A DNA stretch of 64,000 nucleotides, from positions 1,567,053 through 1,631,052 of the forward strand of contig OZ026835.1 in assembly GCA_964023205.1 (NCBI GenBank). Direction: 5' to 3'. Under the pieces are notes generated by a model. It saw nothing but the letters and a program-made list of their open reading frames with translations, ran no database searches and was not told the DNA's origin. Position 1 is the first letter of the stretch. Each line of letters opens with the position of its first letter. This DNA comes from Lutraria lutraria (lineage: Eukaryota; Mollusca; Bivalvia; Venerida; Mactridae). A program made the position numbers and the translations under genes. Positions 287 through 17,660 of the stretch are shown piece after piece.

Positions 287-294
287 GTGGTTTT

Positions 295-2043: not shown

Positions 2044-2044
2044 C

Positions 2045-3343: not shown

Positions 3344-3345
3344 GA

Positions 3346-3711
3346 TTAATCGAAAATATCAAGAGGTCTGGCCTGCTTAACTCGGCGATGATGAAGTTTC
3401 GAATGAGGTCTTTTCTTGACTGGTTTGCTCTTTATACGTCTTTTAGGGCTGGCCACGGCATGTAGCAAGGATTCACCCACATCTTTTAATACAGAGGCTC
3501 CACGTTTTCGTATTACTTGTTTAGCGTTTGATCCTGTCAAGATATCTTTGATAGCGGCTTTTCCTTGCTGGAGTCCTTCTTTTTTCAAGGTGCGAACTCC
3601 AGATTTCACAAATGGATTCAGTAAAGGTATAATTCTTTTCATGGCTTTCTTAAACATGGATCCAAGTCCGTGTCCATATTGTCGAGGTTGACCTTGGTAA
3701 GTAGGTATCAT
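3346..3711 (-). CDS. Small basic virion-type protein (121 aa)
   Basis: A short Arg/Lys-rich protein between the minor and major capsid genes. The N-terminal half has a Gly-rich start and an amphipathic helix (GLGSMFKKAMKRIIPLLNPF), then a helical segment around KEGLQQGKAAIKDILTG. The C-terminus is strongly basic (KRRIKSKPVKKRPHSK). Similar small proteins at this position in Polintons/adintoviruses have been compared with adenovirus minor virion proteins (pVI or core types); I cannot decide which. Its ATG overlaps the upstream stop in an ATGA, which suggests translational coupling with the minor capsid gene. Confidence 0.75.
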   Translation of the reverse strand: MIPTYQGQPRQYGHGLGSMFKKAMKRIIPLLNPFVKSGVRTLKKEGLQQGKAAIKDILTGSNAKQVIRKRGASVLKDVGESLLHAVASPKRRIKSKPVKKRPHSKLHHRRVKQARPLDIFD

Positions 3712-4550
3712 TGTCTTTGGCGTAGGTGTAGTTTCACCATAGACTTCCCATGAATAAACTGAATAGACTGGCCAGTGTCACCCCTTATATGGATAGTGAT
3801 GGTGTCAAAGTCGGCTTTAGCCAGTGGTACATAGTGTAAATTCAAGAACTCGAAATGAATATGAGGGTTAGTTCCTGCTTTCGTTCTCGGATCAAATGGA
3901 GCTACACGTAAGATGGGGGCTTCTATGTTTCCCAAATAGGTATAAGACGCAAGGTCGGAATAAACAAACAAATGATTATGACCCATGTTAATATCTACGC
4001 CATGAGGAAACGGATCTGGAGTGTCTTTAAAAAAGATGGTCGAAGAACTATCAGGGGCTCCACCCAGTTTAATAAACATGTGAGGATGAAACTGAATGCC
4101 TAGTTGATCCGAACTGTCCAGTTTTGCGCGTTTACTTTGTCCTGAAAAACCCATGGTAAATCGAAGGCCTTTCTGTCTAAATATTTTACCTAATTGATCT
4201 TTCACGGTAAAGTCAATCGTCTCGATCAAATGTTGGGGTGTGACATAAGTTCCTATAGGAATACAAAGTCGTACACCTTTTTCTTCTTTATTGGGGAGAG
4301 TACAATAGGTCTCAAAGTTTTCTAAGGCCTTACCCAGGACAGGATCATGTGTGACAATGTAGAAATGTCGCTCTTCTTCAGTGACATTAATGACCTGACT
4401 AGGAACAATCATTTCCACTAAGGCAATTTCCCAGTCTTGTTTATTGAGATGGATGGGTTTTGTCAGTTTGGTACGAAAACAACATTGCGTATTGTCTGGG
4501 AATAAATCCATAGAGCTATCACTCATGAGTGTGATGTAAAACGAACTCAT
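3708..4550 (-). CDS. Minor capsid protein (penton-like, single jelly-roll)
   Basis: 280 aa. It begins MSSFYITLMSDSSMDLFPDN and continues with TKLTKPIHLNKQDWEIALVE, the recognisable N-terminus of the Polinton minor capsid (penton-like) family, which is predicted to occupy the vertices. The C-terminal beta-rich segment (HIRGDTGQSIQFIHG) also fits. It is coupled on both sides by ATGA overlaps, with the two-TM gene upstream and the 121-aa gene downstream. The element 2 copy (62541-63383) differs by only a few residues. Confidence 0.88.
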   Translation of the reverse strand: MSSFYITLMSDSSMDLFPDNTQCCFRTKLTKPIHLNKQDWEIALVEMIVPSQVINVTEEERHFYIVTHDPVLGKALENFETYCTLPNKEEKGVRLCIPIGTYVTPQHLIETIDFTVKDQLGKIFRQKGLRFTMGFSGQSKRAKLDSSDQLGIQFHPHMFIKLGGAPDSSSTIFFKDTPDPFPHGVDINMGHNHLFVYSDLASYTYLGNIEAPILRVAPFDPRTKAGTNPHIHFEFLNLHYVPLAKADFDTITIHIRGDTGQSIQFIHGKSMVKLHLRQRQ

Positions 4551-4792
4551 GTTGATTTAGGTTTATTGAATTTCAAGGAGGGGTTCGGTAGAATATAACC
4601 TAGAGAACTACTTAAAAGCAGAAGCCACAATTCCCGATCGGGTCGTTGAAAACACAAATTAAATAGCGATACGGTAATAATAATAAATACCACTACAATT
4701 TGTGCAAAAAAAGTGACCTTATTTTTGGGTTCACACAATTTGGCTTGCTCTGAGGCAGTCACTACCACACTGGCCGTATCGGTTTGAGACAT
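4547..4792 (-). CDS. Two-TM small membrane protein (81 aa)
   Basis: Two hydrophobic segments are visible: roughly residues 28-48 (VTFFAQIVVVFIIITVSLFN) and 55-70 (ELWLLLLSSSLGYILP), separated by a short charged turn (QRPDRE). Small proteins with this 'LLSSSLGYxLPNP' ending recur beside the Polinton minor capsid gene. The role is unknown; an internal membrane or egress function is possible. The stop overlaps the next ATG (ATGA). It starts 15 nt after the integrase stop. The element 2 copy is frameshifted. Confidence 0.8.
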   Translation of the reverse strand: MSQTDTASVVVTASEQAKLCEPKNKVTFFAQIVVVFIIITVSLFNLCFQRPDRELWLLLLSSSLGYILPNPSLKFNKPKST

Positions 4793-4807
4793 GATGTATT
4801 TATTAGT

Positions 4808-5881
4808 TCAAACGAGATGGGATTCGGGAATCCAACTGTCAAATTTCGAAGGATAACCTTTCCAATGTACTTTAATTTCTCGTCTTCCGTCTACCTTACT
4901 CTGGCGATGGGCGAGCACTGATTCAATTTCATAGATAGCATCATCTTTTATAACCTGTACTTCAGAGAAATAAAACGAACCCAGTATGGGTTCTCCGTCT
5001 AAATCAGTCAATTTCACAGTAGCAGGAGAGGTCTTTTTGACTTGGATCACTTTAAACAGTTCAGTGGTCCAGTTGGGTAGATAACCTTTATCAAATGTAC
5101 GTTTTGTTTTATTGATACGAACAATATCTCCCACATGAAGGGTCGTCGACGCTTTTTTTCTTGATTTTCCATACAAGGTCAAGGCCACTTGAGATTCGTT
5201 ATTCTCATTTACGGATACGGGTGCCATGTGTATACTACGATGAACACGATGATTATAGGCATGCACGAGATCAGACAATACCTGAATATACCTTCGTGTT
5301 TTATGATGCGTAAAGTATTTCCACATGCGTGATTTTAAGGTTCGTTGAAAACGTTCCACTATACTAGCCTTCGTTTCTGGGTTTTCAGTCGTAAAATAAT
5401 GAATCCCTACTTTGTCTAAAAACTGTTGAAACCTTTGATTCTTGAATTCTGTTCCTTTATCGGTTTGCAACGCTTTAGGTTGTCTCGTTTTAAGAATAGA
5501 GCGAAACGCTTCCACCAATGTGAGCCCCGTTTTATCCTTGAGGGGAACGACCCAAGCATATTTTGAAAACACGTCAATGACACACAACAAATATCGATAA
5601 GGGGTGTTGTACTGAGCCAAGGATTGCATGTCTGCCAAATCAGCTTGCCATTGATGATCAATACCACCCACAATCGTTTTCCGTCTCGAGAATACCCTAC
5701 GGATAGGTTTGTGCAGGGTATAGGTCTTTTGTCCCTTCAACCAGGATCGCACTTGACTTGGCGTAATGGATTTCAGTTGAGTTCGAGCTGCTGTAGTAAG
5801 ACGTTCTACCCCACCAAAACCAGCCGGATGATGGGGATCATAATAAATCTGATGTAACAGACTGTCTACCTTTTTGTTCAT
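4808..5881 (-). CDS. RVE-type integrase with C-terminal chromodomain
   Basis: Retroviral-fold integrase that inserts the element and generates the 6-bp duplication. Catalytic residues in this 357-aa version: Asp81 (QADLADM), Asp141 (QTDKGTEF) and Glu176 (KASIVERF), with the classical D-x34-E spacing. The C-terminal 45 residues (YEIESVLAHR ... VHWKGYPSKFDSWIP) form a chromodomain, as in other Polinton integrases, which may guide insertion to marked chromatin. The open frame reaches 5902, but only to a GTG inside the upstream gene. The first ATG (5879-5881, MNKKVDSLL) has a good context (ACAACATGA) and follows the upstream stop by 5 nt. Confidence 0.95.
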   Translation of the reverse strand: MNKKVDSLLHQIYYDPHHPAGFGGVERLTTAARTQLKSITPSQVRSWLKGQKTYTLHKPIRRVFSRRKTIVGGIDHQWQADLADMQSLAQYNTPYRYLLCVIDVFSKYAWVVPLKDKTGLTLVEAFRSILKTRQPKALQTDKGTEFKNQRFQQFLDKVGIHYFTTENPETKASIVERFQRTLKSRMWKYFTHHKTRRYIQVLSDLVHAYNHRVHRSIHMAPVSVNENNESQVALTLYGKSRKKASTTLHVGDIVRINKTKRTFDKGYLPNWTTELFKVIQVKKTSPATVKLTDLDGEPILGSFYFSEVQVIKDDAIYEIESVLAHRQSKVDGRREIKVHWKGYPSKFDSWIPESHLV

Positions 5882-5886
5882 GTTGT

Positions 5887-6645
5887 CTAGTAGGCTTCCC
5901 ACTTAGGTTCTGCTTTCATCTGTTTGACAGGTTTACTTATAGGTTCTGCTTTCATCTGTTTGGCAGGTTTACTTATAGGTGAACGAGGCTCAACAAAACT
6001 ATCAAAGAATTCATCATCTTCCTCCGAATCGTCTGCTTTTTGCATCCATGACCATCTCCGTTTATTTCCTATCGCTTCTTGTGGTACATTGACATCTCTT
6101 AGTCCACTAGAAAACTGTTCCCATCCTCTAGGCTCCGACCCTTTTCTATGACGTATGACATCATTGACCAAATCAATAATGTTGGATCCTTGTATTGGTT
6201 TTCCATGGTATTCCAACATCCCTTGATCATTCCATGACATGTGGGGATGATTTTGTAGAAAGTGTAATAAAAGCTGAGTTTTTCGACGCATAGTAGTAGG
6301 AACACTTTCAAGAATCCGATCCGTCAATGTAGCAGGAGCCGCTTGTGCCCCTTGTGCACCTTGAGCAGCTGGAACAACCGGTGCACCCGGTGTAACTGGT
6401 GCAGCCAGAGTAGCCGGTTCACGTGCTTTTTGATGAGACAGTTGAAACTTTTGCAAGACTTGTCCATAGTGTTGTGCTTTTTCTGATTCAGACAACGATT
6501 CATTTTGTAATACGTCTCCCATTTGTTTCTGTAAATCGGATGTTTGACTGACTTGCGGGGGAGGAGGTAAACGTGGTCGTTGTTCTGTTTTCCATCGATT
6601 CATCTCTTCTAGCATTTTGAACGGGACGATAGCCATTTTCTTCAT
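5887..6645 (-). CDS. Conserved Polinton-associated protein (252 aa)
   Basis: Function unknown. The N-terminus is a short coiled-coil-like region (MLEEMNRWKTEQ). A low-complexity Ala/Pro/Gln linker spans about residues 75-105. The conserved core, about 107-190, contains LTDRILESVPTTMRRKTQLL, then GKPIQGSNIIDLVNDVIRHR and GLRDVNVPQE. I recall this 'GSNIxDLVNDVxR' core from many Polinton and related viral elements beside the pX-like gene, without an assigned function. The acidic tail (DDSEEDDEF) is followed by ISKP-QMKAEP repeats that vary between the two elements. It overlaps the pX-like gene by ATGA. Confidence 0.85.
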   Translation of the reverse strand: MKKMAIVPFKMLEEMNRWKTEQRPRLPPPPQVSQTSDLQKQMGDVLQNESLSESEKAQHYGQVLQKFQLSHQKAREPATLAAPVTPGAPVVPAAQGAQGAQAAPATLTDRILESVPTTMRRKTQLLLHFLQNHPHMSWNDQGMLEYHGKPIQGSNIIDLVNDVIRHRKGSEPRGWEQFSSGLRDVNVPQEAIGNKRRWSWMQKADDSEEDDEFFDSFVEPRSPISKPAKQMKAEPISKPVKQMKAEPKWEAY

Positions 6646-7013
6646 AGCTTTTTCACCAGTGTGGCAACACCTCCACTGAGTGCTCCTGCAGCAACAGCTT
6701 TAGCAATGATTGGAGCAAGAGCCAGTAATGGAAATAATCCTCCTTTTTGATTCAACACACGTTTCTTTTTTTGAATGGATACTCTTTTATCTGCTAAAGT
6801 GCGGAGATGTTGACGCTTGGACTTCAACCTTTGCTTTTGAGAGGGGGATAAGGCAACATTGCCTTTTAAAACATTCTGACAGCATTCTGACACACATTGA
6901 ATCATTTCTTTAGATGCTCCATGTATCATCTTTCTTCTTAACCCATCTGGGGCTTGAGTTAAACCCAAAACCAGATGTCCGTATTTATGCAGGAGTGGTC
7001 TCTTTGGTGCCAT
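6642..7013 (-). CDS. pX-like core protein (123 aa)
   Basis: Small basic protein with a hydrophobic Gly/Ala tail. It has a helical N-terminal half, a conserved centre LKGNVALSPSQKQRLKSKRQ, then ADKRVSIQKKKRVLNQKGG, and a C-terminal hydrophobic stretch LFPLLALAPIIAKAVAAGAL. The GG plus 'LAPIIA' tail resembles adenovirus core protein X (mu precursor), and adintovirus work has named homologues accordingly. The likely role is DNA condensation in the virion. The same central pattern recurs in the next upstream gene (7052-8176), so the two look like paralogues. Its stop overlaps the 252-aa gene's ATG. Confidence 0.82.
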   Translation of the reverse strand: MAPKRPLLHKYGHLVLGLTQAPDGLRRKMIHGASKEMIQCVSECCQNVLKGNVALSPSQKQRLKSKRQHLRTLADKRVSIQKKKRVLNQKGGLFPLLALAPIIAKAVAAGALSGGVATLVKKL

Positions 7014-7051
7014 TATGTCAAATAATACCTGTTTTTACTTCTTTACAGCTT

Positions 7052-8176
7052 TTATACTAAAGCATCAAAGGCTTGTCTTGAAGCTGGATTCATAGGGCCC
7101 TGTCTCATCAGGTGAATACGATGTCTCAAAAGGGGTTTCAAGACAGCCTGTCTTGATAAGGTAGATAAGGATAGGGGCGAAAAACGGCACAATGGAGTGT
7201 CTGGTGAACTTCTTGAACTGGGAGATGATCTACTAGATGATCTGCTGGATGAACTCCTAGGTGTGGTAAAACTACTTGACCCACTGGTTGAATAACTGCT
7301 TGGCCCACTGGTTGAATAACTACTTGGCGAACTGTTTGAATAACTCAAACTGCTTGGCCCACTGCTTGAATAACTTCTTGAACTTCTAGGTGTGCTAAAA
7401 GAGCTTGGTCCACTTCTAGATAAACTTCTTGAACTTCTAGATGAACTGCTTGGTCCACTTCTAGATAAACTTCTTGAACTTCTAGATGAACTGTTTGATC
7501 CACTTCTAGATAAACTTCTAGATGAACTTTTAGGTGTGCTAAAACTGTTTGATCCACTTCTAGAAGAATTTCTTAAGCTTTTAGATGAGCTAAAGTTCAA
7601 ACTACTCACAGGACTGATAGGAGACCATTGTAACTTACTGATTGGAGTTACAGCCATAGAGGGTGTTGAAGTGGTTTGCTTTCGACGACGGAGAGTAATA
7701 AAACGTTCATTGATCTTGGCAGGCGATTTTCTAGCTTTTTTAGCTGGAGCTTTTCTAGGTTTTCTAGCAGGCGATTTTCTTTTAGCTGGAGCTTTTCTAG
7801 GTTTTCTAGCAGGCGCTTTTCTTTTAGCTGGAGATTTTACAAATTTACGAATCGTCTTTTGACCATTCCATCGGAGTAAACTTCGTATCATAACTCCACC
7901 AAGAAATCCACCTCCTCCTGGTTTCAATATGAGTTGACGTTTAGTATCCATGTCCACTTGATCATCTCCCAGCTGCTCTAATTCATGCTGATGTTTTTGC
8001 ATAAAGTTTTGTGTTTGTTTAGGTAGCACAATTTCCTTTTTTAAAATCACCTTTGCTGCTAAGGTGAACCACTTGAGCATTTCTTTTAATCCAGACCGTA
8101 GCATTTGCTCCCGTACAGTAGGGTCTCGTTCCTGACCCAAATGTTCTAACGATTGAGCTATGGCTGTGGCTGACAT
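7052..8176 (-). CDS. Histone H1/protamine-like core protein with pX-like head (374 aa)
   Basis: Three parts. Residues 1-100 repeat the pattern of the 123-aa pX-like protein: ILKKEIVLPKQTQNFMQKHQ, then VDMDTKRQLILKPGGGG. Residues about 110-160 are Lys/Ala/Pro repeats (KAPARKPRKAPAK, KARKSPAK) like the tail of histone H1 or molluscan protamine-like proteins, which suggests DNA packaging. Residues about 185-320 are Ser-rich with RS, GPSS and SYS repeats, possibly phosphorylated. A conserved closing segment follows (LCRFSPLSLS, then RHRIHLMRQGPMNPASRQAF). The repeat regions differ in length between elements (374 versus 361 aa). A TATATAAA sequence sits about 35 nt upstream of the ATG. DNA condensation is inference from composition and paralogy. 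Confidence 0.85.
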   Translation of the reverse strand: MSATAIAQSLEHLGQERDPTVREQMLRSGLKEMLKWFTLAAKVILKKEIVLPKQTQNFMQKHQHELEQLGDDQVDMDTKRQLILKPGGGGFLGGVMIRSLLRWNGQKTIRKFVKSPAKRKAPARKPRKAPAKRKSPARKPRKAPAKKARKSPAKINERFITLRRRKQTTSTPSMAVTPISKLQWSPISPVSSLNFSSSKSLRNSSRSGSNSFSTPKSSSRSLSRSGSNSSSRSSRSLSRSGPSSSSRSSRSLSRSGPSSFSTPRSSRSYSSSGPSSLSYSNSSPSSYSTSGPSSYSTSGSSSFTTPRSSSSRSSSRSSPSSRSSPDTPLCRFSPLSLSTLSRQAVLKPLLRHRIHLMRQGPMNPASRQAFDALV

Positions 8177-8210
8177 GATGACTGAATGATCTTATATGAG
8201 TAAACGATGT

Positions 8211-8858
8211 TTATATATACACAACTGGCCCACGTTTTTCTCCAGTGATCCAGTGATGAAAAATATCAGTTCTTAACCGATAACTGTCTGGTGTTTGAGG
8301 GTGAAAGTCAATCACTAAATACCCATGAGGTGTAGAGATAGCATCTTGATAAGCGGGTAACAAGTGTGGCAATTGAATTTGATTCGCCAACACTTTGATT
8401 TGTCCTTTATCTCTTGTGTTTTGAAATAAGATCATGTAATGTGCATTTAAACTCAGGGTACGACTGGCTTTCGATTGTTGAAACATGTTTTGTGTAATGT
8501 AGATCACACTAGCATTACGATGGTGACCTTTTCGTGTAAACCATAATTTGATTTTCTCTTCATCTTTATCACCAAGCATGTCATCAAATATAATTAAATG
8601 AGGAATGGATGTATCCTCTACTATCTCTTCATCCTCGTCAGGTATCCCCTGTATGAACCGAATACTAGGTTCTTGTTCTTGTAACTGTGCATAGGCTACT
8701 TGCCATTCTTTGTAACACCATACAATACGCTCTGGTACTACTTGAAACAAATCTGATTTGTATTCCAACACCTTTTTTACAAATTGTGTTTTACCAGAGC
8801 CACTAGGGCCTGCGATAAACATATTGCAAGGATGCTTAAAAAGTAAACTGGACTCCAT
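8211..8858 (-). CDS. FtsK/HerA-type genome-packaging ATPase
   Basis: Packaging ATPase of the Polinton/adenovirus/PRD1 group, expected to pump DNA into the capsid. Walker A is GPSGSGKT (residues 17-24) directly after a short beta-strand (CNMFIA). Walker B is HLIIFDDML with Asp92 and Asp93. A polar sensor-like strand VIYITQN follows. At 215 aa it is at the short end of the family but complete. It begins a new cluster: an AATAAATAAA lies between it and the upstream 120-aa gene, and the next gene is the H1-like core protein. Confidence 0.92.
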   Translation of the reverse strand: MESSLLFKHPCNMFIAGPSGSGKTQFVKKVLEYKSDLFQVVPERIVWCYKEWQVAYAQLQEQEPSIRFIQGIPDEDEEIVEDTSIPHLIIFDDMLGDKDEEKIKLWFTRKGHHRNASVIYITQNMFQQSKASRTLSLNAHYMILFQNTRDKGQIKVLANQIQLPHLLPAYQDAISTPHGYLVIDFHPQTPDSYRLRTDIFHHWITGEKRGPVVYI

Positions 8859-8898
8859 GACGTGAAAATCACAACTAACACTATTGGAAGAAAAACAT

Positions 8899-8908
8899 TT
8901 TATTTATT
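8899..8908 (-). terminator. Overlapping AATAAATAAA polyadenylation signals
   Basis: Minus-strand tandem AATAAA 44-54 nt after the stop of the 120-aa gene and 41 nt before the ATPase ATG. It probably ends the PolB to 120-aa transcript. The same sequence is kept in element 2 (58229-58238). Confidence 0.6.
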
Positions 8909-8952
8909 TGTGTACAATAACCAGATAAAACATGATTGAGTTCTTTACAAGT

Positions 8953-9315
8953 TTATGTATGAGTACAAGAATAATCACAACAAGAACAACACATGTCATG
9001 TAAGGGTAACAACAGTTTGTCAGAAAATTCAAACACACATTCTGAATGTCCAGATTGACTCAGAAATGTTAACACAGAGTCATTGTTCACCACCTGTTTG
9101 AACCAATCCGTTTCACTCAAGTCCATGGGTACTGATTGTTTATAAAATGAATTCATCACATGAAGTCCATGTTTCATTTCTTCAAACATGTCTGGTGTAC
9201 TCAACTGTTGTCGAATCCATTCCAGAGAATGATGACCTTCAGGTATCTTCATACGATAAGCAAATACCAATGCTTTTCTCAACAGGGTATGGTTCATAAT
9301 ATCAAACTGTTCCAT
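8953..9315 (-). CDS. Uncharacterised 120-aa protein with C-terminal Cys cluster
   Basis: Not recognised. It is mostly helical with a Trp-containing core (HHSLEWIRQQLS; SETDWFKQVV) and ends in a dense Cys cluster (MCCSCCDYSCTHT) that could bind metal or be lipid-modified or disulfide-linked. It overlaps the 95-aa gene upstream by 22 nt. Element 2 keeps it at 118 aa with a small in-frame indel near the middle (FYKQ versus YQ), so the frame is under constraint. It is the last gene before a polyadenylation signal in the PolB cluster. Confidence 0.75.
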   Translation of the reverse strand: MEQFDIMNHTLLRKALVFAYRMKIPEGHHSLEWIRQQLSTPDMFEEMKHGLHVMNSFYKQSVPMDLSETDWFKQVVNNDSVLTFLSQSGHSECVFEFSDKLLLPLHDMCCSCCDYSCTHT

Positions 9316-9581
9316 TCTTGAATCGTGTGAATCACTCTATCGTTACATACATAAGTATTCCAATCGTCTCGATGGATAGCTTTCAAGTCTAAGTGTGCAC
9401 TGATCATAGCATCACGAATCATCTGTCTAAATAGTTCAAACGTGTGAGGGTTCAGAATCCACGCGCGAATGTCCTTGACCTTGACAAGGTCATCTTGTAC
9501 AATACTGTATAACGTATCCGTATACAGCTCAAAATCCAAAATGTAATATAAACTTATAAATCGTCTAGATGGTTTAACCAT
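9294..9581 (-). CDS. Uncharacterised 95-aa protein
   Basis: Not recognised. The upstream end of the open frame is a TTG; the first ATG gives MVKPSRRFISLYYILDFELY. The middle contains WILNPHTFELFRQMIRDAM, and the C-terminus is VCNDRVIHTIQEWNSL. It overlaps the F-box-like gene by 28 nt and the 120-aa gene by 22 nt, a compact early-type cluster behind PolB. The element 2 copy (57594-57881) differs by one residue. Confidence 0.72.
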   Translation of the reverse strand: MVKPSRRFISLYYILDFELYTDTLYSIVQDDLVKVKDIRAWILNPHTFELFRQMIRDAMISAHLDLKAIHRDDWNTYVCNDRVIHTIQEWNSLIL

Positions 9582-10180
9582 AATTGAATATTTCCTGAAC
9601 AAATCACTATTCTAGGTCGATTCGCATGAACGGCTTCAATCTCGTCTTTGACTTCTCTTAAGCGGTGCCTTAATTTATAGAACACGGCACGATACTGTAG
9701 AATATGAATAACATGAGTGAACGGTACCTGTCTCTTAAATACCATGATACCACGTATTTTAAACTGTGAATACTGACGCCATCCGGGGTGAGATCTCCCA
9801 TTGTCCTCTTCAGCCATACTGAACCATATCACATTTGGGGTAGAACGAAAATTGTTAGCTAAGGCAGATACGTCGCTCAAATTAGCATCGTGGATTAAAA
9901 AATCCCATGTCGTAGATAACATACGATCTAAGCTTTGTTGTACCACATTCAGTTTTCGTAGAATCGGTAATTTTTGGTTGAATGACAAGTCCTGGCGATC
10001 ACCTACATCCTTCAACAGTCTCTCTATCCGTCGATGATTTGTATGTTGTAAGCTATGTATAGCATTATGAGTAGCCCATGTGTGCACTAACTCCATCTTC
10101 CATGTTTTAGCGTTAGCCCATATGACATAACGATAAATTTTAAGTCTCAGCTCTATCGGTAGTAAGGGTATCCAATCCAT
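9554..10180 (-). CDS. F-box-like protein (208 aa)
   Basis: The N-terminus MDWIPLLPIELRLKIYRYVI fits the start of an F-box (LP-x-E-L-x-x-x-I). An F-box would let the protein recruit host SKP1/cullin ubiquitin ligase. The rest is helical and basic, with a conserved Trp/Phe core (WDFLIHDANLSD; NVIWFSMAEED) and no repeats that I recognise. A further in-frame ATG at 10220-10222 exists here but not in element 2, so the conserved start is the one used. It lies 59 nt downstream of the PolB stop. The F-box call rests on about 20 residues and needs a profile search. Confidence 0.7.
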   Translation of the reverse strand: MDWIPLLPIELRLKIYRYVIWANAKTWKMELVHTWATHNAIHSLQHTNHRRIERLLKDVGDRQDLSFNQKLPILRKLNVVQQSLDRMLSTTWDFLIHDANLSDVSALANNFRSTPNVIWFSMAEEDNGRSHPGWRQYSQFKIRGIMVFKRQVPFTHVIHILQYRAVFYKLRHRLREVKDEIEAVHANRPRIVICSGNIQLWLNHLDDL

Positions 10181-10239
10181 GTCTTTATGAATAATGACTT
10201 TTAGATGACTTGTTCTAGTCATTACCTAAAAGGTCAATG

Positions 10240-13200
10240 TCAGTCATGTAGATAACCATAAGGCACAGTCATATGATTCTCGACCACAATACGTTTGGTA
10301 TACACCGAACGAAATGTTTTGACTTGTTTCTCACTGGTCACGGTTCTGTCCTTATGACGTTTAATCCGAGAAGCATATTCAACTACGGTCGAATAATGGT
10401 GTCTGTCTTTCACACAATCCACCATCGTATTGAAATTCACTTGTTGAGTGGCATTGTAGTCTAACGTAATGCCTTTCACTTTGCAATTTTGATGGAGTTC
10501 ACCGTTTTCAATGTATTCATACCCATAGTTCTTTGGACCTAAAGCGACATATCTCACAATACGACCCTTTGGTACCTCATCTGTCCATTTTCCCAATCGA
10601 CTGGAGATAATAGGAACATTATAGCCATCAGGGTCATGAATGTACATACAACTGTCTGTGTCAAAATACAATACTCTCTTTCCTAGAGGTTCAAGCACTT
10701 TGTACAGTTCTAATCGAGCATAAGCCGTCACAAATGAAGCCACCACAGGATTGGCTGATGAATGAGGGTCTGCTTTGTCCGATTCATCAGTATAATTCAT
10801 TAACATGAATTCATCATGATCAAAACACTCTACATATTTCACAGACTTTTTAGGATCGTTCAGTATTCCGTAGAACTGGTCCAATCGATGAACATACTCT
10901 GTTTTAGGCAAGAGGTTGGTTTGAGCATTTTTGCCCCAGAGACAATTCAGCATGGTTTTGGCAAAAGCTCGTTTTCCTGGATTTTTCTCCACCTGTTGCA
11001 AACGAATTCCTTCAGCTTCAAAATAATCCTGTTTAAATTTATCTTGAGCCTCTTCCGTATCCACCCCTGGAGGATATCCACTAGCCTCTTGTTTCATTTT
11101 CAAGTATTTGTCAATGTATTGCCGATAGACGTCCGTACTCCATTCATCCCAGTGCCATACATGATACACTTTTGATACTTGATAGCCTAAAGCAATAGCT
11201 TTAGCCAATTCAACATGAGTCCATGTGCCATACAAGAACCGTTCATACGGTGAATGTGTACAATAATCCATCTCCTTCTCAGCACAGGTACGGCATAGCG
11301 TAAACACCATTTTGCTATTACAGTGTATGGGTAAGACAGGCATCCATAAATCTTGCGGGGGTAGAACACGGCATTTAATCAGTCCTTTGTATTTCTCAAT
11401 ATGCTGTTGATCAATTTGTTCTTGACTCATGATCACTGGATGGCCTATCGGATAAGTCCTGTACTTGTTCACATACGGATAGAGAGAACAAATATCCACA
11501 TATTTGATTTCTTGGTCGTTGTCTACTTCATGATACAGTCGAACGGCATTCGTACGACCTCCGAACAAAGCTTCCCTGGGTTGTATCGGTTCTTGACCAT
11601 GATAGAATCGTTCCACTCTTGTCTTATAGGCAGGATCCTTTTGACAACGCTGATCAAATTCACATTCCCACATGACCACAACAGGGTACCCCTGTTCTTT
11701 CAAAGACTCCAGTCGTTTATACGTATCGTGATAGGCCTGTTGCATGCTTCTCAAAGTATACGGATTAATGGTACTTCGGTTAGGAAAACAGGTGGGGCAC
11801 CCATGGTACCAACATCCCATGAATTCATACACGGTGTTGGTCTCTTGACAATAGCCATCCACGTAATAAGGTCCAATTTTGACTTCGCCTTTGTTATTCA
11901 AGGCATGCCGAATATGTATCTCTTCGGTGACAGCCATCATTTGTAGCCAACGTATGCCTTTCATGGAATACCGGGTTTTATTGGGATACCCGGCATCCGA
12001 AATCACGGCTAAACTATGAGGCGGCATGGAATTTTTGCGCCAGGCTTTGTTACACACTTGAGCTAATGTGGTAGCTTCAGTAAATGGATCTATTTGATCA
12101 CTTTCCAATAATTGTTGACGAAATTCTCCACACCCGCGTCTTAAAATGTCCACATCCGATTGACAGTATTTCTCCATTTCCTTTTGAAAATCAAATACGT
12201 CACCTTTTCTTTCATTGTACCAGGTTAAAAACTCTTCACGTCGCTCTGGTTTCATACTATCCGGTTTGTAAAAGTGTAGCGGCAAATAAGGTCCCACATA
12301 ATCTTGATACGCCAGGGTGTTTGCATAGAATGGAAACCATCCTTTGGCTAACTCGGTCAGTCCAAATGTATTGGGAAAACCGGAGAGAGGCATACTCAGG
12401 AAACTGAGGGAGTCAATCATGCGTATTCCATGCACTCTCAATTGAATGATTTTACTACCATTCATAATCAACTGGGGTTTCGCCGTCCCCTGAGTGAGCA
12501 CATATCTAAGAATAAACTGAGCGTCATAGCCTTGAGCATTGTGGGCTATCACTGTCGATCCTCGATGGGTAGGGAGGAATAGCCAAGTACAGAATTGTTG
12601 TAACGTAATTTCACCACGGAATGTCATTTGTCTGGCTTCATTCACCTCTTCACAATACTCACATGGAGCTTTCACTGACTTACACATACAGTCACCACAA
12701 GCACGTTGAGCCACACAAAAATTAGGGATATGTTCTCCAGAATCAAAACGACATTCAAAATCAAAAAAGATGAATGGTACTTCTGGTTGTTTTCTATCGG
12801 GTGGTTCATACGTTGGAATGTAACATTCATGATCTGGTCCTACTATGGCTTTACAACACCTGCATTTCTTTGTCCCTGGGCAAACGTGACTCCGTTTCGT
12901 TTCAATCACCTTTTGCCCACATTTCTTACAATTCCATACGGATTCACAAATGGTTTTACGTTGTTTTCCCGTTTTTGTTTTATGATTGTCAAAACATGCC
13001 TGACTCTGGAACAGGCGACGACAATCTGGACATCTTATAGATTGTCCTGCTGGGCACAGGGTGTGAGCATAACACTGACAAATATGGCTACACTGGTGTC
13101 CTTCACGGTGATCATAACTGATATCGCACCATTCACAATAATAACCCCGTCCGAGAAATCCGGTGATGGATACAATACAGTCATAATGATTATCATGGTG

Positions 13201-14031
13201 AAAGATATGAATCACACGACTTTTTTCAGTCATAGCAGGTGGTTTGAATAACAATTCACTTCCATAATGTTGTGGATGGATTTTAATCACATAGCCTGGA
13301 TAGAGATAGTCCTGTAGTTTTTGGTATTCTTCTATACCACACGACTGATCCGATGAAATACCCACTTGCTTCAACAATGCTTCAGCTTCGTATTTTTGAA
13401 GATTTTTCTTAGAGCGACGTATATAACCCCATCGTTTTTTCCATTCCGGGGTTTGATTTTCATGTACTTTACACCGTCCTACCACAATCGATCTAGCTAA
13501 ACACATAGAGTCTTTACTATTGTCAATACACACAACACTTGTCTTTGACTTCCGCATACTGAATAAGTTTGGTGCTTTAAACGTTTTCTTTCCGGTTCCC
13601 TGTGGCATAGCAATATGCGTAATTTCCATCTGTGCCGCCCCATCATGAATTTTAAATTGACGGTTACTTTGTGCCACACGTTCAATTTCATCCAACAATG
13701 TATCTCCACTAATACGAGATGCCCTATTAAACGGAACATGTATTCCAAAGTCCAAATCAGGATGTAGAATAGATACTCGAACTCGATCATTCGACTTCAC
13801 TTCGCATCTCTTGTAGAGCTGATCCATCATATCATTAAACACCCTGTTTGTAAATTCAAACGATTGATTATACGGCTGAAATGTCACATCATATACTCTA
13901 GATTGAGTCTTGAATTTTCTTGACTTTCTTTCCATGCGTGACTGTATGTCATAATAGTCGCGCACAGGCTCAAACTTACTTCGTTTAGTTGGAGGTTCAT
14001 CCTCACCACTAGTACTGTCGGTATCTGACAT
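10240..14031 (-). CDS. DNA polymerase B, protein-primed type (pPolB)
   Basis: Replicative family B polymerase of the element (1263 aa). In order: an acidic/basic N-terminus; Cys/His zinc-binding repeats at about 297-400 (CEWCDISYDHREGHQC, CPDCRRLF, CKKCGQKV); exonuclease motif I FFDFECRFD (about 421) and motif III YCQSDVDILRRG (about 622); an insertion with YEFMGCWYHGCPTCF (about 734), an endonuclease-like segment known in this family; polymerase motif A DICSLYPYVNKY (about 845); motif B AKTMLNCLWGKN (about 1024); motif C YFDTDSCMY (about 1120); and a KNYGYEY motif (about 1166). The frame stays open upstream only to a GTG. The first ATG (14029-14031) lies about 29 nt after a TATA box. It appears intact. 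Confidence 0.96.
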   Translation of the reverse strand: MSDTDSTSGEDEPPTKRSKFEPVRDYYDIQSRMERKSRKFKTQSRVYDVTFQPYNQSFEFTNRVFNDMMDQLYKRCEVKSNDRVRVSILHPDLDFGIHVPFNRASRISGDTLLDEIERVAQSNRQFKIHDGAAQMEITHIAMPQGTGKKTFKAPNLFSMRKSKTSVVCIDNSKDSMCLARSIVVGRCKVHENQTPEWKKRWGYIRRSKKNLQKYEAEALLKQVGISSDQSCGIEEYQKLQDYLYPGYVIKIHPQHYGSELLFKPPAMTEKSRVIHIFHHDNHYDCIVSITGFLGRGYYCEWCDISYDHREGHQCSHICQCYAHTLCPAGQSIRCPDCRRLFQSQACFDNHKTKTGKQRKTICESVWNCKKCGQKVIETKRSHVCPGTKKCRCCKAIVGPDHECYIPTYEPPDRKQPEVPFIFFDFECRFDSGEHIPNFCVAQRACGDCMCKSVKAPCEYCEEVNEARQMTFRGEITLQQFCTWLFLPTHRGSTVIAHNAQGYDAQFILRYVLTQGTAKPQLIMNGSKIIQLRVHGIRMIDSLSFLSMPLSGFPNTFGLTELAKGWFPFYANTLAYQDYVGPYLPLHFYKPDSMKPERREEFLTWYNERKGDVFDFQKEMEKYCQSDVDILRRGCGEFRQQLLESDQIDPFTEATTLAQVCNKAWRKNSMPPHSLAVISDAGYPNKTRYSMKGIRWLQMMAVTEEIHIRHALNNKGEVKIGPYYVDGYCQETNTVYEFMGCWYHGCPTCFPNRSTINPYTLRSMQQAYHDTYKRLESLKEQGYPVVVMWECEFDQRCQKDPAYKTRVERFYHGQEPIQPREALFGGRTNAVRLYHEVDNDQEIKYVDICSLYPYVNKYRTYPIGHPVIMSQEQIDQQHIEKYKGLIKCRVLPPQDLWMPVLPIHCNSKMVFTLCRTCAEKEMDYCTHSPYERFLYGTWTHVELAKAIALGYQVSKVYHVWHWDEWSTDVYRQYIDKYLKMKQEASGYPPGVDTEEAQDKFKQDYFEAEGIRLQQVEKNPGKRAFAKTMLNCLWGKNAQTNLLPKTEYVHRLDQFYGILNDPKKSVKYVECFDHDEFMLMNYTDESDKADPHSSANPVVASFVTAYARLELYKVLEPLGKRVLYFDTDSCMYIHDPDGYNVPIISSRLGKWTDEVPKGRIVRYVALGPKNYGYEYIENGELHQNCKVKGITLDYNATQQVNFNTMVDCVKDRHHYSTVVEYASRIKRHKDRTVTSEKQVKTFRSVYTKRIVVENHMTVPYGYLHD

Positions 14032-14059
14032 GATTATGATCTTAGAACTTCTCCGCCGT

Positions 14060-14107
14060 TTTTTATAGTTCGGGTTCAAGGTCACAACGCGTGACACTCT
14101 ATAAAAG
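14060..14107. promoter_or_regulatory. Divergent core promoter with two TATA boxes
   Basis: Minus strand: TATAAAAA (14067-14060), 28 nt before the PolB ATG. Plus strand: TATAAAAG (14100-14107), 33 nt before the zinc-knuckle ATG. The start codons are only 109 nt apart, so the two genes share one short bidirectional promoter. Both boxes are kept in element 2 (53070-53077 and 53110-53117). Confidence 0.7.
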
Positions 14108-14140
14108 ACGTACGCTCCGTCCGTTTTTTATCATTTCAAC

Positions 14141-14491
14141 ATGAGCGATCCTAAAATGAACCAAGCTGAAGAGAACCGAGATCAAACTTTGATGTATTCA
14201 TTAAAGAAGAAAATTAAAGAGCTTAACAACTTAGCGGATCAGCTCTGTGGACAGAAAAATGTAACATGGGATCATATCAAGTGTTATCGTTGTGGAAAGA
14301 AAGGACATTATTCTACAAGCTGTACGGAACCCTTCAACAATGAATGTTTTTATTGTCATGAACAAGGACATTTCATCGCAGACTGTCCTAAGAAACAAGG
14401 TGAACAGGTCGATCTACAGGACGCAGAACAGAGTAAGAAAAAACGTAAATACAAAAAGAATCCAACAAAAACTGTGAGTGACTTTGTGTAA
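14141..14491 (+). CDS. Double CCHC zinc-knuckle protein (116 aa)
   Basis: Two CX2CX4HX4C knuckles: C48-C51-H56-C61 (CYRCGKKGHYSTSC) and C69-C72-H77-C82 (CFYCHEQGHFIADC). This fold binds single-stranded nucleic acid in CNBP/Gag-type proteins. A helical N-terminus (SLKKKIKELNNLADQL) may self-associate. The tail is basic (KKKRKYKKNPTK). It diverges from PolB and may act in replication, for example as a single-strand binding protein; that is inference. There is no RT or Gag context. Downstream is AATAAA (14596-14601), so its 3' end is conventional. The element 2 copy differs by about one residue. Confidence 0.9.
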   Translation: MSDPKMNQAEENRDQTLMYSLKKKIKELNNLADQLCGQKNVTWDHIKCYRCGKKGHYSTSCTEPFNNECFYCHEQGHFIADCPKKQGEQVDLQDAEQSKKKRKYKKNPTKTVSDFV

Positions 14492-14595
14492 TCCAGACAA
14501 TGTGTTGGACAATGTGTTGGACAATTGTGTATAAATTGGAGACTAAGTGAGTTGTATTGTGTTGTACTTTGTTGTACTTTATAAATGTTTTCAAA

Positions 14596-14601
14596 AATAA
14601 A
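14596..14601 (+). terminator. AATAAA signal of the zinc-knuckle gene
   Basis: AATAAA 105 nt after the stop codon, with a second AATAAA near 14641. It converges with the hairpin end of the minus-strand 74-aa gene. Conserved in element 2 at 52564-52569 (minus strand). Confidence 0.55.
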
Positions 14602-14666
14602 ATGATAGACAATGTAATATGCTTTTGTCTTTGCTTGAGAAATAAAACGAATCTAACACATATGGT

Positions 14667-14682
14667 GGCCCTAATAAGGGCC
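14667..14682 (-). terminator. Variant histone-type stem-loop after the 74-aa gene
   Basis: Minus strand reads GGCCCTTATTAGGGCC, 10 nt after the stop codon, with CCCAAC before and ACCA after. Stem and flanks match the histone type, but the loop is UAUU instead of UUUC, there is only one copy, and the purine-rich CAAGCAAAGAC lies about 31 nt downstream rather than 12. Element 2 keeps it unchanged (52483-52498). Confidence 0.6.
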
Positions 14683-14692
14683 GTTGGGTAAT

Positions 14693-14917
14693 TCATTGCA
14701 TTTCTGCAAGAAATAGGTATCGCCAATAGTTGGCTCTCAAATCCTCATCATAAAAGATGGCAAGGTCAGGGTATAAATTACCCATCTTGATATCCATCTT
14801 CACTTCTACACATGCATCTTGGAATTCAGACAAGTCTGGGTACAAATTACCCATCTTGACCACCCAAACATCTTCTTGTTCAGGTTCATCAGAAGAACTT
14901 TTCAAGCAGTTGCCCAT
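14693..14917 (-). CDS. MGNC-lipidation / tandem YPDL late-domain protein (74 aa)
   Basis: The N-terminus MGNCLKSSSDEP has Gly2 and Cys4 in the arrangement of N-myristoylated and palmitoylated proteins, and its first seven residues equal those of animal RNF11. The body contains two direct repeats, KMGNLYPDLSEFQD (about 21-34) and KMGNLYPDLAIFYD (about 44-57). Each has YPDL, the YPx(n)L motif that binds ALIX and is used as a late domain by lentiviral Gag. The C-terminus RANYWRYLFLAEMQ is conserved. The expected place of action is the inner membrane face and ESCRT sites; that is inference. It shares a CCAAT-box promoter with the 107-aa gene and ends in a histone-type hairpin. Element 2 has a 75-aa copy. 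Confidence 0.85.
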   Translation of the reverse strand: MGNCLKSSSDEPEQEDVWVVKMGNLYPDLSEFQDACVEVKMDIKMGNLYPDLAIFYDEDLRANYWRYLFLAEMQ

Positions 14918-14977
14918 GTTGAATCATGAAACATAAATGAGCTATGGAACATGAGAAAAACACTGACCTAGAACAGA

Positions 14978-15054
14978 CCAATGAAATGCCAGTAAAATAG
15001 ACCAATGAAATGCCATTAAAATAGACCAATGAAATACCGTTAAAATGGACCAAT
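14978..15054. promoter_or_regulatory. Four CCAAT boxes at exact 24-bp spacing
   Basis: CCAAT begins at 14978, 15002, 15026 and 15050, mostly in the context GACCAATGAAAT; the last is GACCAATCAGAG. The array sits between the divergent 74-aa and 107-aa genes. CCAAT is the NF-Y site typical of cell-cycle and histone promoters. Element 2 keeps four boxes at the same period (52099, 52123, 52147, 52171, as ATTGG). Confidence 0.75.
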
Positions 15055-15114
15055 CAGAGTCCTTGTATCATATGAGAGTGACCTTACCTTGATCTAATTT
15101 CATTCTGTATCAAG

Positions 15115-15438
15115 ATGTCACAGAGAACAGTCAACATTATCAAAAGAAAATATGCCGCCTTAGGGCAGTATATAGAGCAGCTGGAAATGCAACTAGAAGA
15201 GCTGCGGTTGGAGGTGAAGACCCTGAGAGAGGGGAAGAAGTTCGCAGAGGAGGTTGTGGTCAGCTCTGGGGAAGAGGACTGGGGGGATACCCCTCAAGAA
15301 TCAACCCCAGAGAACTGGGAAGATGAACTGGTAGAGGTTCCTTCGAACCTCTACCAACCTACACCGGACCCCAAGGATGTCCAGAAATGGGACAAGTGGT
15401 GTCCCGCTTGTATGGGGAGATGCGGTCAACGCCATTAA
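15115..15438 (+). CDS. Coiled-coil/acidic protein with Cys tail (107 aa)
   Basis: Not recognised. Residues about 10-45 form a leucine-heptad coiled coil (YIEQLEMQLEELRLEVKTLR). The middle is acidic and Ser/Pro-rich (SSGEEDWGDTPQE), like an activation or interaction segment. The end is WDKWCPACMGRCGQRH, a compact Cys3His cluster that may bind zinc. It is conserved in element 2 with few changes (51712-52035). It shares the CCAAT-array promoter with the MGNC/YPDL gene and ends in a pair of histone-type hairpins 19 nt after the stop. The layout resembles the 157-aa gene (coiled coil plus Cys tail, hairpin end), but no clear homology is visible. Confidence 0.8.
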   Translation: MSQRTVNIIKRKYAALGQYIEQLEMQLEELRLEVKTLREGKKFAEEVVVSSGEEDWGDTPQESTPENWEDELVEVPSNLYQPTPDPKDVQKWDKWCPACMGRCGQRH

Positions 15439-15457
15439 TCCCCATACAAGCACCAAC

Positions 15458-15495
15458 GGTCCTTTTCAGGACCACCAACGGCCCTTTTCAGGGCC
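15458..15495 (+). terminator. Tandem histone-type 3' stem-loops after the 107-aa gene
   Basis: GGTCCTTTTCAGGACC (15458-15473) and GGCCCTTTTCAGGGCC (15480-15495), joined by ACCAAC, begin 20 nt after the stop. CAGAAAGAATC (15507-15517) follows 12 nt later, in the position and composition of a U7-binding downstream element. It is sense to the gene. Confidence 0.82.
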
Positions 15496-15579
15496 CCCAT
15501 ACAATTCAGAAAGAATCACTCTCATATTGTCAATATTTACAGTCCTATCTGATAACACCAAATACAAATAGACGGTGTG

Positions 15580-16000
15580 AGGTAAGTTAAACATTTCCTA
15601 CAAATATAAGTGATAGTATGATGTGTACAATCATTTTCAACAAATATAAGTGCTGTGATGTACAAAGTATTTCCCCCACAAATATAAGTGTTAGTATGTG
15701 ATGTACAATCATTTTCAACAAATGTCTGCAAATTGCTGTGATAGTATTAAGTGTACAGTCTGCAAAGTGCTGTGATAGTATAATGTGTACAGTATTCAAA
15801 TTGCTGTGATAGTATAATGTGTACAGTCTGCAAAGTGCTGTGATAGTATAATGTGTACAGTATTCAAAGTGCTGTGATAGTATTAAGTGTACAGTCTGCA
15901 AAGTGCTGTGATAGTATTAAGTGTACAGTCTGCAAAGTGCTGTGATAGTATAATGTGTACAGTCTGCAAAGTGCTGTGATAGTATAATGTGTACAAAGCA
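15580..16000 (+). repeat. 34-bp tandem repeats upstream of the Tyr/Gln-rich gene
   Basis: Units containing GCTGTGATAGTATAATGTGT repeat every 34 bp (15735, 15769, 15803, 15837 and onward to about 15973), preceded by looser copies with AAATATAAGTG. The variants alternate at the unit joint (AGTCTGCAAAG or AGTATTCAAAT). Element 2 has a homologous array (50950-51440) in the same orientation relative to the gene. Possible roles are an upstream regulatory array or iterons. Confidence 0.85.
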
Positions 16001-16017
16001 TATCTACAATATAACCT

Positions 16018-16163
16018 TGACCTTGACGTGTCAAACACTTGTTAAAAAAACTTGAAGTGTCACACTTGTAAAAACTTGAAGTGTCACACGTATTCAAAAA
16101 AACTTCTCACAATTGACCTTGACCTAATAGAACACTGGCGCGTGCAGGCAAAAAGTATAAATA
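16018..16163 (+). promoter_or_regulatory. Promoter: two TGACCTTGA sites and a TATA box
   Basis: TGACCTTGA at 16018-16026 and 16114-16122 is the exact complement of TCAAGGTCA, the extended half-site of ERR/NR5A-type orphan nuclear receptors. Between them ACTTGAAGTGTCACAC is repeated twice. TATAAATA at 16156-16163 lies 35 nt before the ATG at 16199. All of it is conserved in element 2 (50784-50937). Confidence 0.6.
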
Positions 16164-16198
16164 CCCCCGGCGCAGACACTATTTTTTCATTATCTAGC

Positions 16199-16924
16199 AT
16201 GGAGTCCTTCAACATGCCATACGATATATTGAGAGAAGCACTAGAATCATCTGAGTTGATAGACCCGAATGCGGGTATGCATTACAACCAGCCGAAGTAC
16301 AACCAGCCAAAGTACGGTCAACTACAGTATAGGCAGCCACAGTACAGCCAATACAGTCAACCACTGTACAACCAATACAGTCAACAGTCCATGGTAGATG
16401 TACAGCCTATGGTAGATGTACAGCCGATACAACCCATGGTAGATGTACAACCCACTATGACGAATACACAACCCATGGTAGATGTACAACCCACTATGAC
16501 GAATACACAGCCTATACAACCTATGACGAATACACAGCCTATGGTAGATGTACAACCCACTATGACGAATACACAGCCCCCTATGGCGAATACACAGCTT
16601 ATGACGGATAAACAGTCTAATACAATTACAAAGCCTACAACGGGATTGTCTGTTCTACAAGGTATCAGGGAAGAAATGGTACAGATGAATCAAGTCATGC
16701 AAGAGATGGTCAGACTCATGAAGAATCAAGAAGTACGGTTTAAACCACAAGAAATGATTGTACCTGTACAGTTTATGTATGATTCAAAGAAACGAAAGCA
16801 TGAGCATGAGAAAAAGAAACCGGAGCATGACAAAAAGAAACCGGAGATGACAGAAACGAAGAAACGAAAACATGATCTTGAGAAACAACCTCGGGGCAAG
16901 TATGGTAAAGAAATAAAGAAATGA
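16199..16924 (+). CDS. Tyr/Gln-rich repeat protein with coiled coil and basic tail (241 aa)
   Basis: Function unknown. The frame is open from 16052, but the TATA box at 16156 and conservation point to ATG 16199 (MESFNMPYDILREALESS). An acidic amphipathic start is followed by Tyr/Gln repeats (YNQPKYNQPKYGQLQY), a prion-like composition, then variable MVDVQP and TMTNTQP repeats. A coiled coil comes next (about 165-195, EEMVQMNQVMQEMVRLMKN), and finally a Lys/His/Glu tail with NLS-like KKRKHEHEKKK. Repeat numbers differ between elements (241 versus 223 aa). It ends in paired histone-type hairpins in the inverted repeat. It might form nuclear condensates or scaffolds; that is inference. Confidence 0.85.
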   Translation: MESFNMPYDILREALESSELIDPNAGMHYNQPKYNQPKYGQLQYRQPQYSQYSQPLYNQYSQQSMVDVQPMVDVQPIQPMVDVQPTMTNTQPMVDVQPTMTNTQPIQPMTNTQPMVDVQPTMTNTQPPMANTQLMTDKQSNTITKPTTGLSVLQGIREEMVQMNQVMQEMVRLMKNQEVRFKPQEMIVPVQFMYDSKKRKHEHEKKKPEHDKKKPEMTETKKRKHDLEKQPRGKYGKEIKK

Positions 16925-16966
16925 AGATCCGACTAACAGCTATGAAGAAATCACCTTGAGAAGACA

Positions 16967-17234
16967 CAACGGTCCTTTTCAGGACCACCAACGGCCCTTT
17001 TCAGGGCCACCATGTCTTTTCGAAAGAAAATTCTCTCATTGTCTCAAATAAATATTTAGTCTATACAGTACAAATAACAAAACACACACAGTACCCAGAA
17101 CATTCCTAAAATCCATTTCATACTATTTTGGGGTACAACATTGATTTCCAATTTGTCCCAATTTGTTACAATTTTGAAAACTTCTGGGTACCAATTACGT
17201 TGATTTGGTACCCAGGGTATCGCCATATACTACT
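16967..17234 (-). repeat. Right terminal inverted repeat of element 1
   Basis: Inverted copy of 26-286 ending CATATACTACT. It is followed directly by the ACCGAT duplication (17235-17240). Confidence 0.95.
16971..17008 (+). terminator. Tandem histone-type 3' stem-loops after the 241-aa gene
   Basis: GGTCCTTTTCAGGACC (16971-16986) and GGCCCTTTTCAGGGCC (16993-17008), the first 46 nt after the stop. ACCA follows, and CGAAAGAAAA (17021-17030) lies 12 nt after the second stem. It is sense to the gene. Confidence 0.82.
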
Positions 17235-17660
17235 ACCGATATTTCAGGGACGGACTTTATCAGTGTCCCAGTCTCAACTACAGAGTCAATTACTTGTGTT
17301 AAGAAAATCACAGAAAACTGGTGAACTGTGTATCATAATCAGTGCCTTACACCGGGCACGATAAAAACAAGAAGAAAAAAACATTCGAATAGGGAGTAGG
17401 GATATGTCCGGTTTTCCCGTACCCCTATCTCTCTAGGATGGCCATACAGTAGCTGTTGAATGGGCCGATAAACATCAATTAAACATAGATATCTGTACTT
17501 TATAAGTGCGAACTATCAGTAAAACTACACAGAAACTTGCAAAAAATCGAAAACAATGTATCAGACTTATAACATATGTAATTATAGTACACAAAGTGGG
17601 TCCCCAATCCCTGATAGCTGTTATCAATTAACTACAATAGAAAATTGAGTCTAAAATTCT
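17235..17660. repeat. Right part of the repeat interrupted by element 1
   Basis: It starts with the duplicated ACCGAT and continues with TTTCAGGGACGGAC, CCCAGTCTCAACTACAGAG and CACCGGGCACGATAAAA. These match, in order, the repeat at about 18880-19350. The homology continues through the flank to the tRNA-Gly downstream, so both are copies of one tRNA-bearing unit. No gene is seen in it. Confidence 0.7.

Follow-up and report, generated by a model that had tools for sequence, protein, structure and literature searches.

Histone-type 3′ stem-loops behind small accessory genes of a Polinton in the bivalve Lutraria lutraria

Polintons (Mavericks) are relatives of virophages, and insertions of Polintons and adintoviruses carry a 6-bp target-site duplication. 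Giant viruses and virophages mark 3′ ends with hairpins (the hairpin rule). Divergent histone gene pairs have CCAAT promoters, and the stem-loop binding protein (SLBP) is made by host cells in S phase. On histone pre-mRNA, SLBP occupies the hairpin and the U7 small nuclear ribonucleoprotein a downstream element, and the transcript is cut a few nt past the stem and receives no poly(A), as described in two papers (PMC1924863, PMC9756948); in the bivalve Lucina, such a palindrome lies close to the stop codon of histone mRNAs (PMC6210712). The present study concerns hairpins of this type in a 64,000-nt stretch of the genome of another bivalve, Lutraria lutraria (contig OZ026835.1, positions 1,567,053 to 1,631,052; called the window below). 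The window holds two copies of a Polinton, elements 1 and 2, and the hairpins follow small accessory genes of both.

These 3′ ends are like those of metazoan replication-dependent histone genes in having a 6-bp GC-rich stem, a 4-nt loop and CAAC/ACC flanks near the stop codon of a small uninterrupted open reading frame (ORF), and, where the hairpin is doubled, a purine element that follows after 12-13 nt. Unlike replication-dependent histone genes, the genes in the window, known here from sequence, encode no known histone, sit in a self-synthesising transposon and often carry the signal twice. The element itself is like Polintons/Mavericks and adintoviruses in its DNA polymerase B (PolB), rve integrase with chromodomain, A32-like ATPase, weak protease match, capsid-like gene and terminal inverted repeats (TIRs). 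It differs from described members of these groups in its histone-type 3′ ends, for which we found no description, judged largely from titles. A full-text search for ‘histone stem-loop’ together with ‘Polinton’ returned no paper; among the titles listed for wider searches on Mavericks, transposons, transposable elements, SLBP, U7 and viruses, none dealt with such ends, and the term ‘stem-loop’ is absent from two papers on related viruses (PMC11071308, PMC11071296). We consider it probable that four small Polinton genes carry histone-type 3′ stem-loops and that their mRNAs, as we predict, are bound by SLBP, cut by U7/CPSF73 and free of poly(A).

Hairpin ends in the window

When the window was scanned with the Rfam covariance model of the histone 3′ stem-loop (Histone3, RF00032; curated cut-off 34 bits), all seven 3′ ends at which a preliminary description had placed hairpins were matched, three of them above the cut-off. 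No match beyond these seven ends was obtained in the whole 64 kb at E<=10. The three cassettes that exceeded the cut-off belong to terminal genes of 157, 241 and 223 aa, and the four matches under it have E-values of 2.4e-5 to 6.5e-5. The seven ends are:

245 to 282, minus strand: double hairpin of the 157-aa gene; 35.8 bits, E 1e-6, the match (219-265) taking in the purine element
14667 to 14682, minus strand: single UAUU hairpin of the 74-aa gene, 10 nt past the stop; 31.0 bits (match 14642-14687)
15458 to 15495, plus strand: double hairpin of the 107-aa gene, then CAGAAAGAATC; 31.7 bits (match 15475-15520)
16971 to 17008, plus strand: double hairpin of the 241-aa gene at the inner edge of the right TIR, then CGAAAGAAAA; 35.8 bits (match 16988-17034)
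50006 to 50043, minus strand: double hairpin of the 223-aa gene of element 2, 33 nt past the stop; 35.8 bits (match 49980-50026)
51655 to 51692, minus strand: double hairpin of the 107-aa gene of element 2, 19 nt past the stop; 32.1 bits (match 51630-51675)
52483 to 52498, plus strand: single UAUU hairpin of the 75-aa gene of element 2, 10 nt past the stop; 31.0 bits (match 52478-52523)

All seven positions in the preliminary description proved exact. It had also placed the hairpins within 50 nt of a stop codon and always in sense, and this was borne out: every end is sense to the preceding gene and lies 10-46 nt 3′ of its stop, with gaps from stop to first stem base of 12, 10, 19, 46, 33, 19 and 10 nt in window order. 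Five ends are double cassettes, GGTCCTTTTCAGGACC and then GGCCCTTTTCAGGGCC in tandem, and two are single hairpins with a UAUU loop, as had been reported. By eye, the five double cassettes have the purine element 12-13 nt 3′ of the stem. A strict search (GGYYYU-UHYH-ARRRCC) returned 12 hairpins with perfect 6-bp stems in the window, compared with none in 200 dinucleotide shuffles of it, and about 2.5% of the position/strand slots of element 1 are in sense and within 47 nt of one of its 18 stops; on these grounds a chance origin was ruled out.

The ends are real, but they are not seven independent events, which could likewise be ruled out. One and the same cassette, located at the inner edge of the TIRs, recurs at 245-282, 16971-17008 and 50006-50043; as the hairpin pair is the TIR's own inner end, the left and right ends of element 1 share it. 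Both the 107-aa gene and the 74/75-aa gene occur twice in the window. The 107-aa cassette shares 88% identity with the TIR cassette, so that the two likely arose by duplication, and the hairpin of the 74/75-aa gene is set apart by its one stem, its UAUU loop and a different downstream sequence. What had been counted as seven ends thus comes down to three cassettes, two of them related.

Within element 1, hairpins are found 3′ of only four small genes (157, 74, 107 and 241 aa). For the other 14 genes, the 200 nt past the stop are free of sense hairpins; a hairpin flagged near a 116-aa CCHC gene is that of the 74-aa gene on the opposite strand. None of the four hairpin-bearing genes of element 1 matched a Pfam family above cut-off, histone families included. 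Together with their counterparts in element 2, these genes are:

295 to 768, minus strand: 157-aa accessory ORF with a long helix and a Cys-rich tail
14693 to 14917, minus strand: 74-aa accessory ORF with an MGNC start and two LYPDL motifs
15115 to 15438, plus strand: 107-aa accessory ORF
16199 to 16924, plus strand: 241-aa accessory ORF with Q/P-rich repeats and a Lys-rich C-terminus
50077 to 50748, minus strand: 223-aa ORF of element 2, corresponding to the 241-aa ORF of element 1
51712 to 52035, minus strand: 107-aa ORF of element 2, 97% identical to the copy in element 1
52245 to 52472, plus strand: 75-aa ORF of element 2, corresponding to the 74-aa ORF of element 1

Copies in the host genome and distant relatives

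The host genome was searched over 728.5 Mb in 71 contigs. At least 150 matches to the 107-aa protein were listed, from 444 first-look candidates; those listed have 95-100% protein identity, and one has an internal stop. The Polinton family of the window is young and large in this genome. RF00032 gave at least 44 matches at E<=1e-3, at least 37 of which were above the cut-off. These counts are lower bounds, since scoring covered 75 of the 131,090 first-look candidates, and for the same reason missing histone genes carry no meaning. Judged by position and sequence, ends of the window family account for 39 of the 44 (two ends were matched twice), many of them paired about 17 kb apart; the remaining five lie in an array of a 109-aa gene.

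The 3′ end of the 107-aa gene was compared in 39 copies, comprising the two in the window, those of 17 elements that had been picked for their TIR hairpin and, regardless of hairpin, 20 taken from the 150 protein matches listed. The first hairpin is intact and the purine element CAGAAAGAAT present in all 39, and no AATAAA or ATTAAA occurs within 130 nt past the stop in any of them. The second hairpin reads GGCCC/GGGCC in 34 copies, GGUCC/GGACC in three and GGUCC/GGGCC in one, and is broken in one. Its third pair is accordingly C-G in 34, U-A in three and U-G in one, a compensatory change with a G-U intermediate.

The end of the 74-aa gene was located through its C-terminal motif in 16 of the 17 elements, and all 16 have the hairpin; no such motif turned up in the remaining element. 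At one locus (L086) the 74-aa hairpin has a mismatched pair. As for the TIRs, CGAAAGAAAA is present in 37 of 40 ends, and a poly(A) hexamer occurs within 100 nt past the last stem in two, both of element 1. Element 1 has AATAAA there (150-295, 17008-17060), and the other TIR ends read AATGAA or are without the stretch. Four of the 40 ends have one hairpin damaged and the partner intact, for which reason the second hairpin of the tandem is likely a spare. Among 17 distinct hairpin sequences, five, from family copies or the 109-aa array, have one mismatched pair and one has two. The loop variants are UUUC, UAUU, UAUC and UCUC; U is constant at position 3, on which the search set no constraint, and the U at position 1 was imposed by the search pattern.

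The 109-aa array (L049-L051, G000:C12:22874000-22917500) is a tandem array with a unit of about 1.5 kb, built on an unrelated 109-aa ORF (MPSRIQSLDKRF...). A histone-type hairpin with one mismatched pair lies about 39 nt past each stop and scores 28.4-31 bits, under the cut-off. It is a second non-histone gene set with histone-like ends, arranged like histone repeats.

The best 120 of 1244 PolB relatives include, among the named ones, sequences from oysters, Mercenaria, Mytilus, other molluscs, echinoderms and insects, a range that by itself makes a bivalve host likely. A search of genome contigs returned eight mis-binned PolB loci, one of which (L012) has an RF00032 match and seven have none. 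The distant Polinton L012 lies on a contig of 8.9 kb that was wrongly assigned to a bacterial metagenome-assembled genome. Its PolB is in pieces, with 35% identity in the best segment; its integrase has an rve domain above the cut-off and a chromodomain just under it, and a capsid-like protein is 29% identical to the 432-aa protein of the window. The contig also encodes a homologue of the TATA-box-binding protein (TBP) at L012:7189-7695 on the minus strand (PF00352, E 1.2e-27). The RF00032 hairpin of L012 scores 35.8 bits, above the cut-off, and is in sense. By eye, its stem lies beyond the TBP gene, 28 nt past an 89-aa C2H2 zinc-finger ORF, AAAAAAGAGATTTT starts 12 nt 3′ of the stem, and an inverted CCAAT box and TGACGTCA sites resembling the cAMP response element (CRE) stand upstream of the ORF.

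In IMG/VR, a search with PolB alone found nothing, and alignments of integrase and capsid found no relatives. The PolB alignment gave nine distant loci of 22-33% identity, without an RF00032 match at E<=1. With seven mis-binned and nine IMG/VR loci lacking a match, the trait is either patchy or located outside those fragments. Strict hairpin patterns returned nothing from IMG/VR and a loose pattern 12 stretches, several of them mutual copies. In eight of the 12, an ORF of at least 50 aa ends 28 or 88 nt upstream; longer ORFs cross the match too. All 12 lack both an AAC 5′ flank and, about 12 nt further on, an element of the GAAAGA type; they were taken as chance matches.

Other genes and signals of the two elements

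Element 1 spans about 19-17241 and has a Polinton gene set between its TIRs, with PolB, rve integrase and A32-type ATPase above the Pfam cut-offs. Its inverted arms pair 19-183 with 17077-17241 (165 nt, 98%) and 159-286 with 16967-17094 (128 nt, 93%). Element 2 runs from about 49.8 kb to the window end; it is a second copy in opposite orientation, and its PolB frame is interrupted. The further features of element 1 are:

19 to 286: left TIR, the inner end of which is the hairpin cassette
2045 to 3343, minus strand: 432-aa protein, probably a capsid protein (29% identity to its L012 counterpart), without hairpin
4808 to 5881, minus strand: integrase (rve, PF00665 E 3.6e-12) with chromodomain (PF00385 E 1.4e-7), without hairpin
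8211 to 8858, minus strand: A32-like packaging ATPase (PF04665 E 2.4e-8), without hairpin
10240 to 14031, minus strand: PolB (PF03175 E 3e-37), without hairpin
14978, 15002, 15026 and 15050: four CCAAT boxes at 24-nt spacing in the intergenic region 14918 to 15114 (197 bp) of the divergent 74-aa and 107-aa genes
16967 to 17241: right TIR

The 432-aa capsid-like protein had no Pfam match, and the protease-like gene has a weak one under the cut-off (PF00770, E 0.043). In element 1, AATAAA follows the stop by no more than 50 nt in the protease-like, integrase and 120-aa genes, but past PolB, the capsid-like gene of 432 aa and four other genes a stretch of 400 nt holds neither AATAAA nor ATTAAA.

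The CCAAT region is a putative promoter of the 74-aa/107-aa pair. This pair is like divergent histone gene pairs in sharing 197 bp with four CCAAT boxes and in having a histone-type hairpin at both ends; unlike those pairs, its products are not histones, and its promoter activity is putative. A PDB sequence search with three of the four accessory proteins gave no convincing relative, and a homologue search with the 107-aa protein returned two matches, both close and without context. For the 157-aa protein, a single-sequence AlphaFold2 model consists of one helix (2-116; predicted template modelling score 0.43). The 74/75-aa protein (14693-14917, 52245-52472) is unusual for a Polinton protein in its MGNC start, which we take to be myristoylation-like, and its two LYPDL motifs, presumably of the ALIX-binding YPxL type. 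By eye, short degenerate repeats (GCTGTGATAGTATAATGTGTACAGT...) are arrayed at 15600-16000, between the 107-aa and 241-aa genes. Between the two elements, at 17769-45146, eleven tRNA matches lie on both strands, nine of them with equal score.

Explanations for the hairpin ends and their meaning

SLBP/U7-type processing, as predicted from the sequence, is the best explanation of the hairpin ends. In the double cassettes and in L012 the parts stand in the right order and spacing, from which we infer that the host histone machinery processes the transposon mRNAs. The hairpin in an accessory mRNA would be bound by host SLBP, and U7 would pair with CGAAAGAAAA or CAGAAAGAATC, the purine element that lies 12-13 nt past the stem. 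The U7/CPSF73 complex would then cut 3′ of the hairpin, and the mRNA would end free of poly(A) like a replication-dependent histone mRNA. Going by the known regulation of SLBP, the accessory mRNAs may accumulate in S phase, when a self-copying element would profit. The divergent 74-aa/107-aa pair may be transcribed via its CCAAT boxes in an NF-Y-type manner, as histone gene pairs are. The Rfam U7 family gave no match in the host genome; control genomes were equally silent, hence this search is uninformative.

Evidence that the hairpins are of the histone type comes from the RF00032 matches, the retention in 39 of 39 copies, the compensatory pair, the missing poly(A) hexamers and the distant Polinton. 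That part of the preliminary description stands, whereas the contrast it drew with capsid and replication genes, said to keep AATAAA, applies to some genes only: it fits the integrase and the protease-like gene and fails for PolB and the 432-aa capsid-like gene. Several observations weigh against histone-type processing. The hairpins of the 107-aa and 74/75-aa genes score 31.0-32.1 bits, under the Rfam cut-off of 34 bits. By eye, no purine element is seen at the usual distance behind either of the single UAUU hairpins, so that the element claimed 12 nt past the stem is confined to the five double cassettes. In Lucina, the purine-rich elements of four histone genes are off the usual distance (PMC6210712). 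Single broken pairs or stems occur among the copies. The 40 TIR ends were selected via the hairpin, which biases the conservation of their hairpins, and the listed copies are young (95-100% identity), which limits the power of conservation. Finally, 16 of 17 distant PolB loci, many of them partial contigs, are without a histone hairpin. Random orientation and position in other Polintons, named in the preliminary description as a refutation, did not appear in the one distant relative with a match; with no match in the other 16, the hairpin trait may not be general.

It could be argued that the hairpins are incidental or regulatory elements of the 3′ untranslated region and that the mRNAs are normally polyadenylated at a downstream AATAAA, a reading that we hold to be improbable. 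AATAAA is found 88 and 122 nt past the stops of the two terminal genes of element 1 and also 3′ of the L012 hairpin, which in either place counts against histone-type processing, and a human histone pre-mRNA can go either way (PMC9756948). Downstream poly(A) signals are also known from histone genes, which makes such a route conceivable for the transposon. The same circumstance takes weight from these signals, however, as human H2A and Drosophila histone genes likewise have them downstream (PMC1924863), and hexamers are scarce among the copies (two of 40 TIR ends, each time in element 1, and none of the 39 ends of the 107-aa gene). It is very unlikely that a single chance capture of a histone 3′ end was followed by passive copying without function. 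The 88% identity of the TIR and 107-aa cassettes, which points to duplication, and the youth of the listed copies would suit such an origin, but the 74-aa hairpin differs in loop, downstream region and stem number (one), the second hairpin of the 107-aa gene has the compensatory pair with its G-U intermediate, hairpins are confined to accessory genes, and the distant lineage of L012 shows the same arrangement.

With three of the seven hairpin ends at the inner edge of a TIR, the hairpins might instead act as DNA, in integration, replication or packaging, their position behind genes being a by-product. This is hardly credible given that the 107-aa, 74-aa and L012 cassettes stand behind genes and away from any TIR seen, that the asymmetric loop reads in gene sense at all seven window ends and in L012, and that the flanks follow the order of histone RNA, as does the purine element at the double cassettes and in L012. 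Hairpins directly past stops also recall the viral 3′-end signals of giant viruses and virophages, to which Polintons are akin. Three window ends and L012 nevertheless exceed the curated histone cut-off, and the other genes of the elements have no hairpin; a viral signal that is not of the histone type is extremely improbable, and giant-virus-type or other terminators were thought unlikely on the sequence and the Rfam score.

SLBP/U7-type processing, if true, would mean that a virus-like transposon has the histone 3′ end on non-histone genes, a break with the rule for that end. With the RF00032 covariance model, any Polinton or adintovirus record can be screened for histone-type ends. More tentatively, in a view we hold as plausible but somewhat short of probable, the histone-type 3′ ends may constitute an S-phase regulon of animal Polintons, in which accessory genes, probably with regulatory roles, are coupled to the histone mRNA pathway in lineages as distant from each other as the window family and L012; well over 100 copies in the host, with several SLBP/U7 substrates each, would then compete with host histone pre-mRNAs. 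Such ends would give a mobile DNA element a simple way to time its expression to DNA replication.

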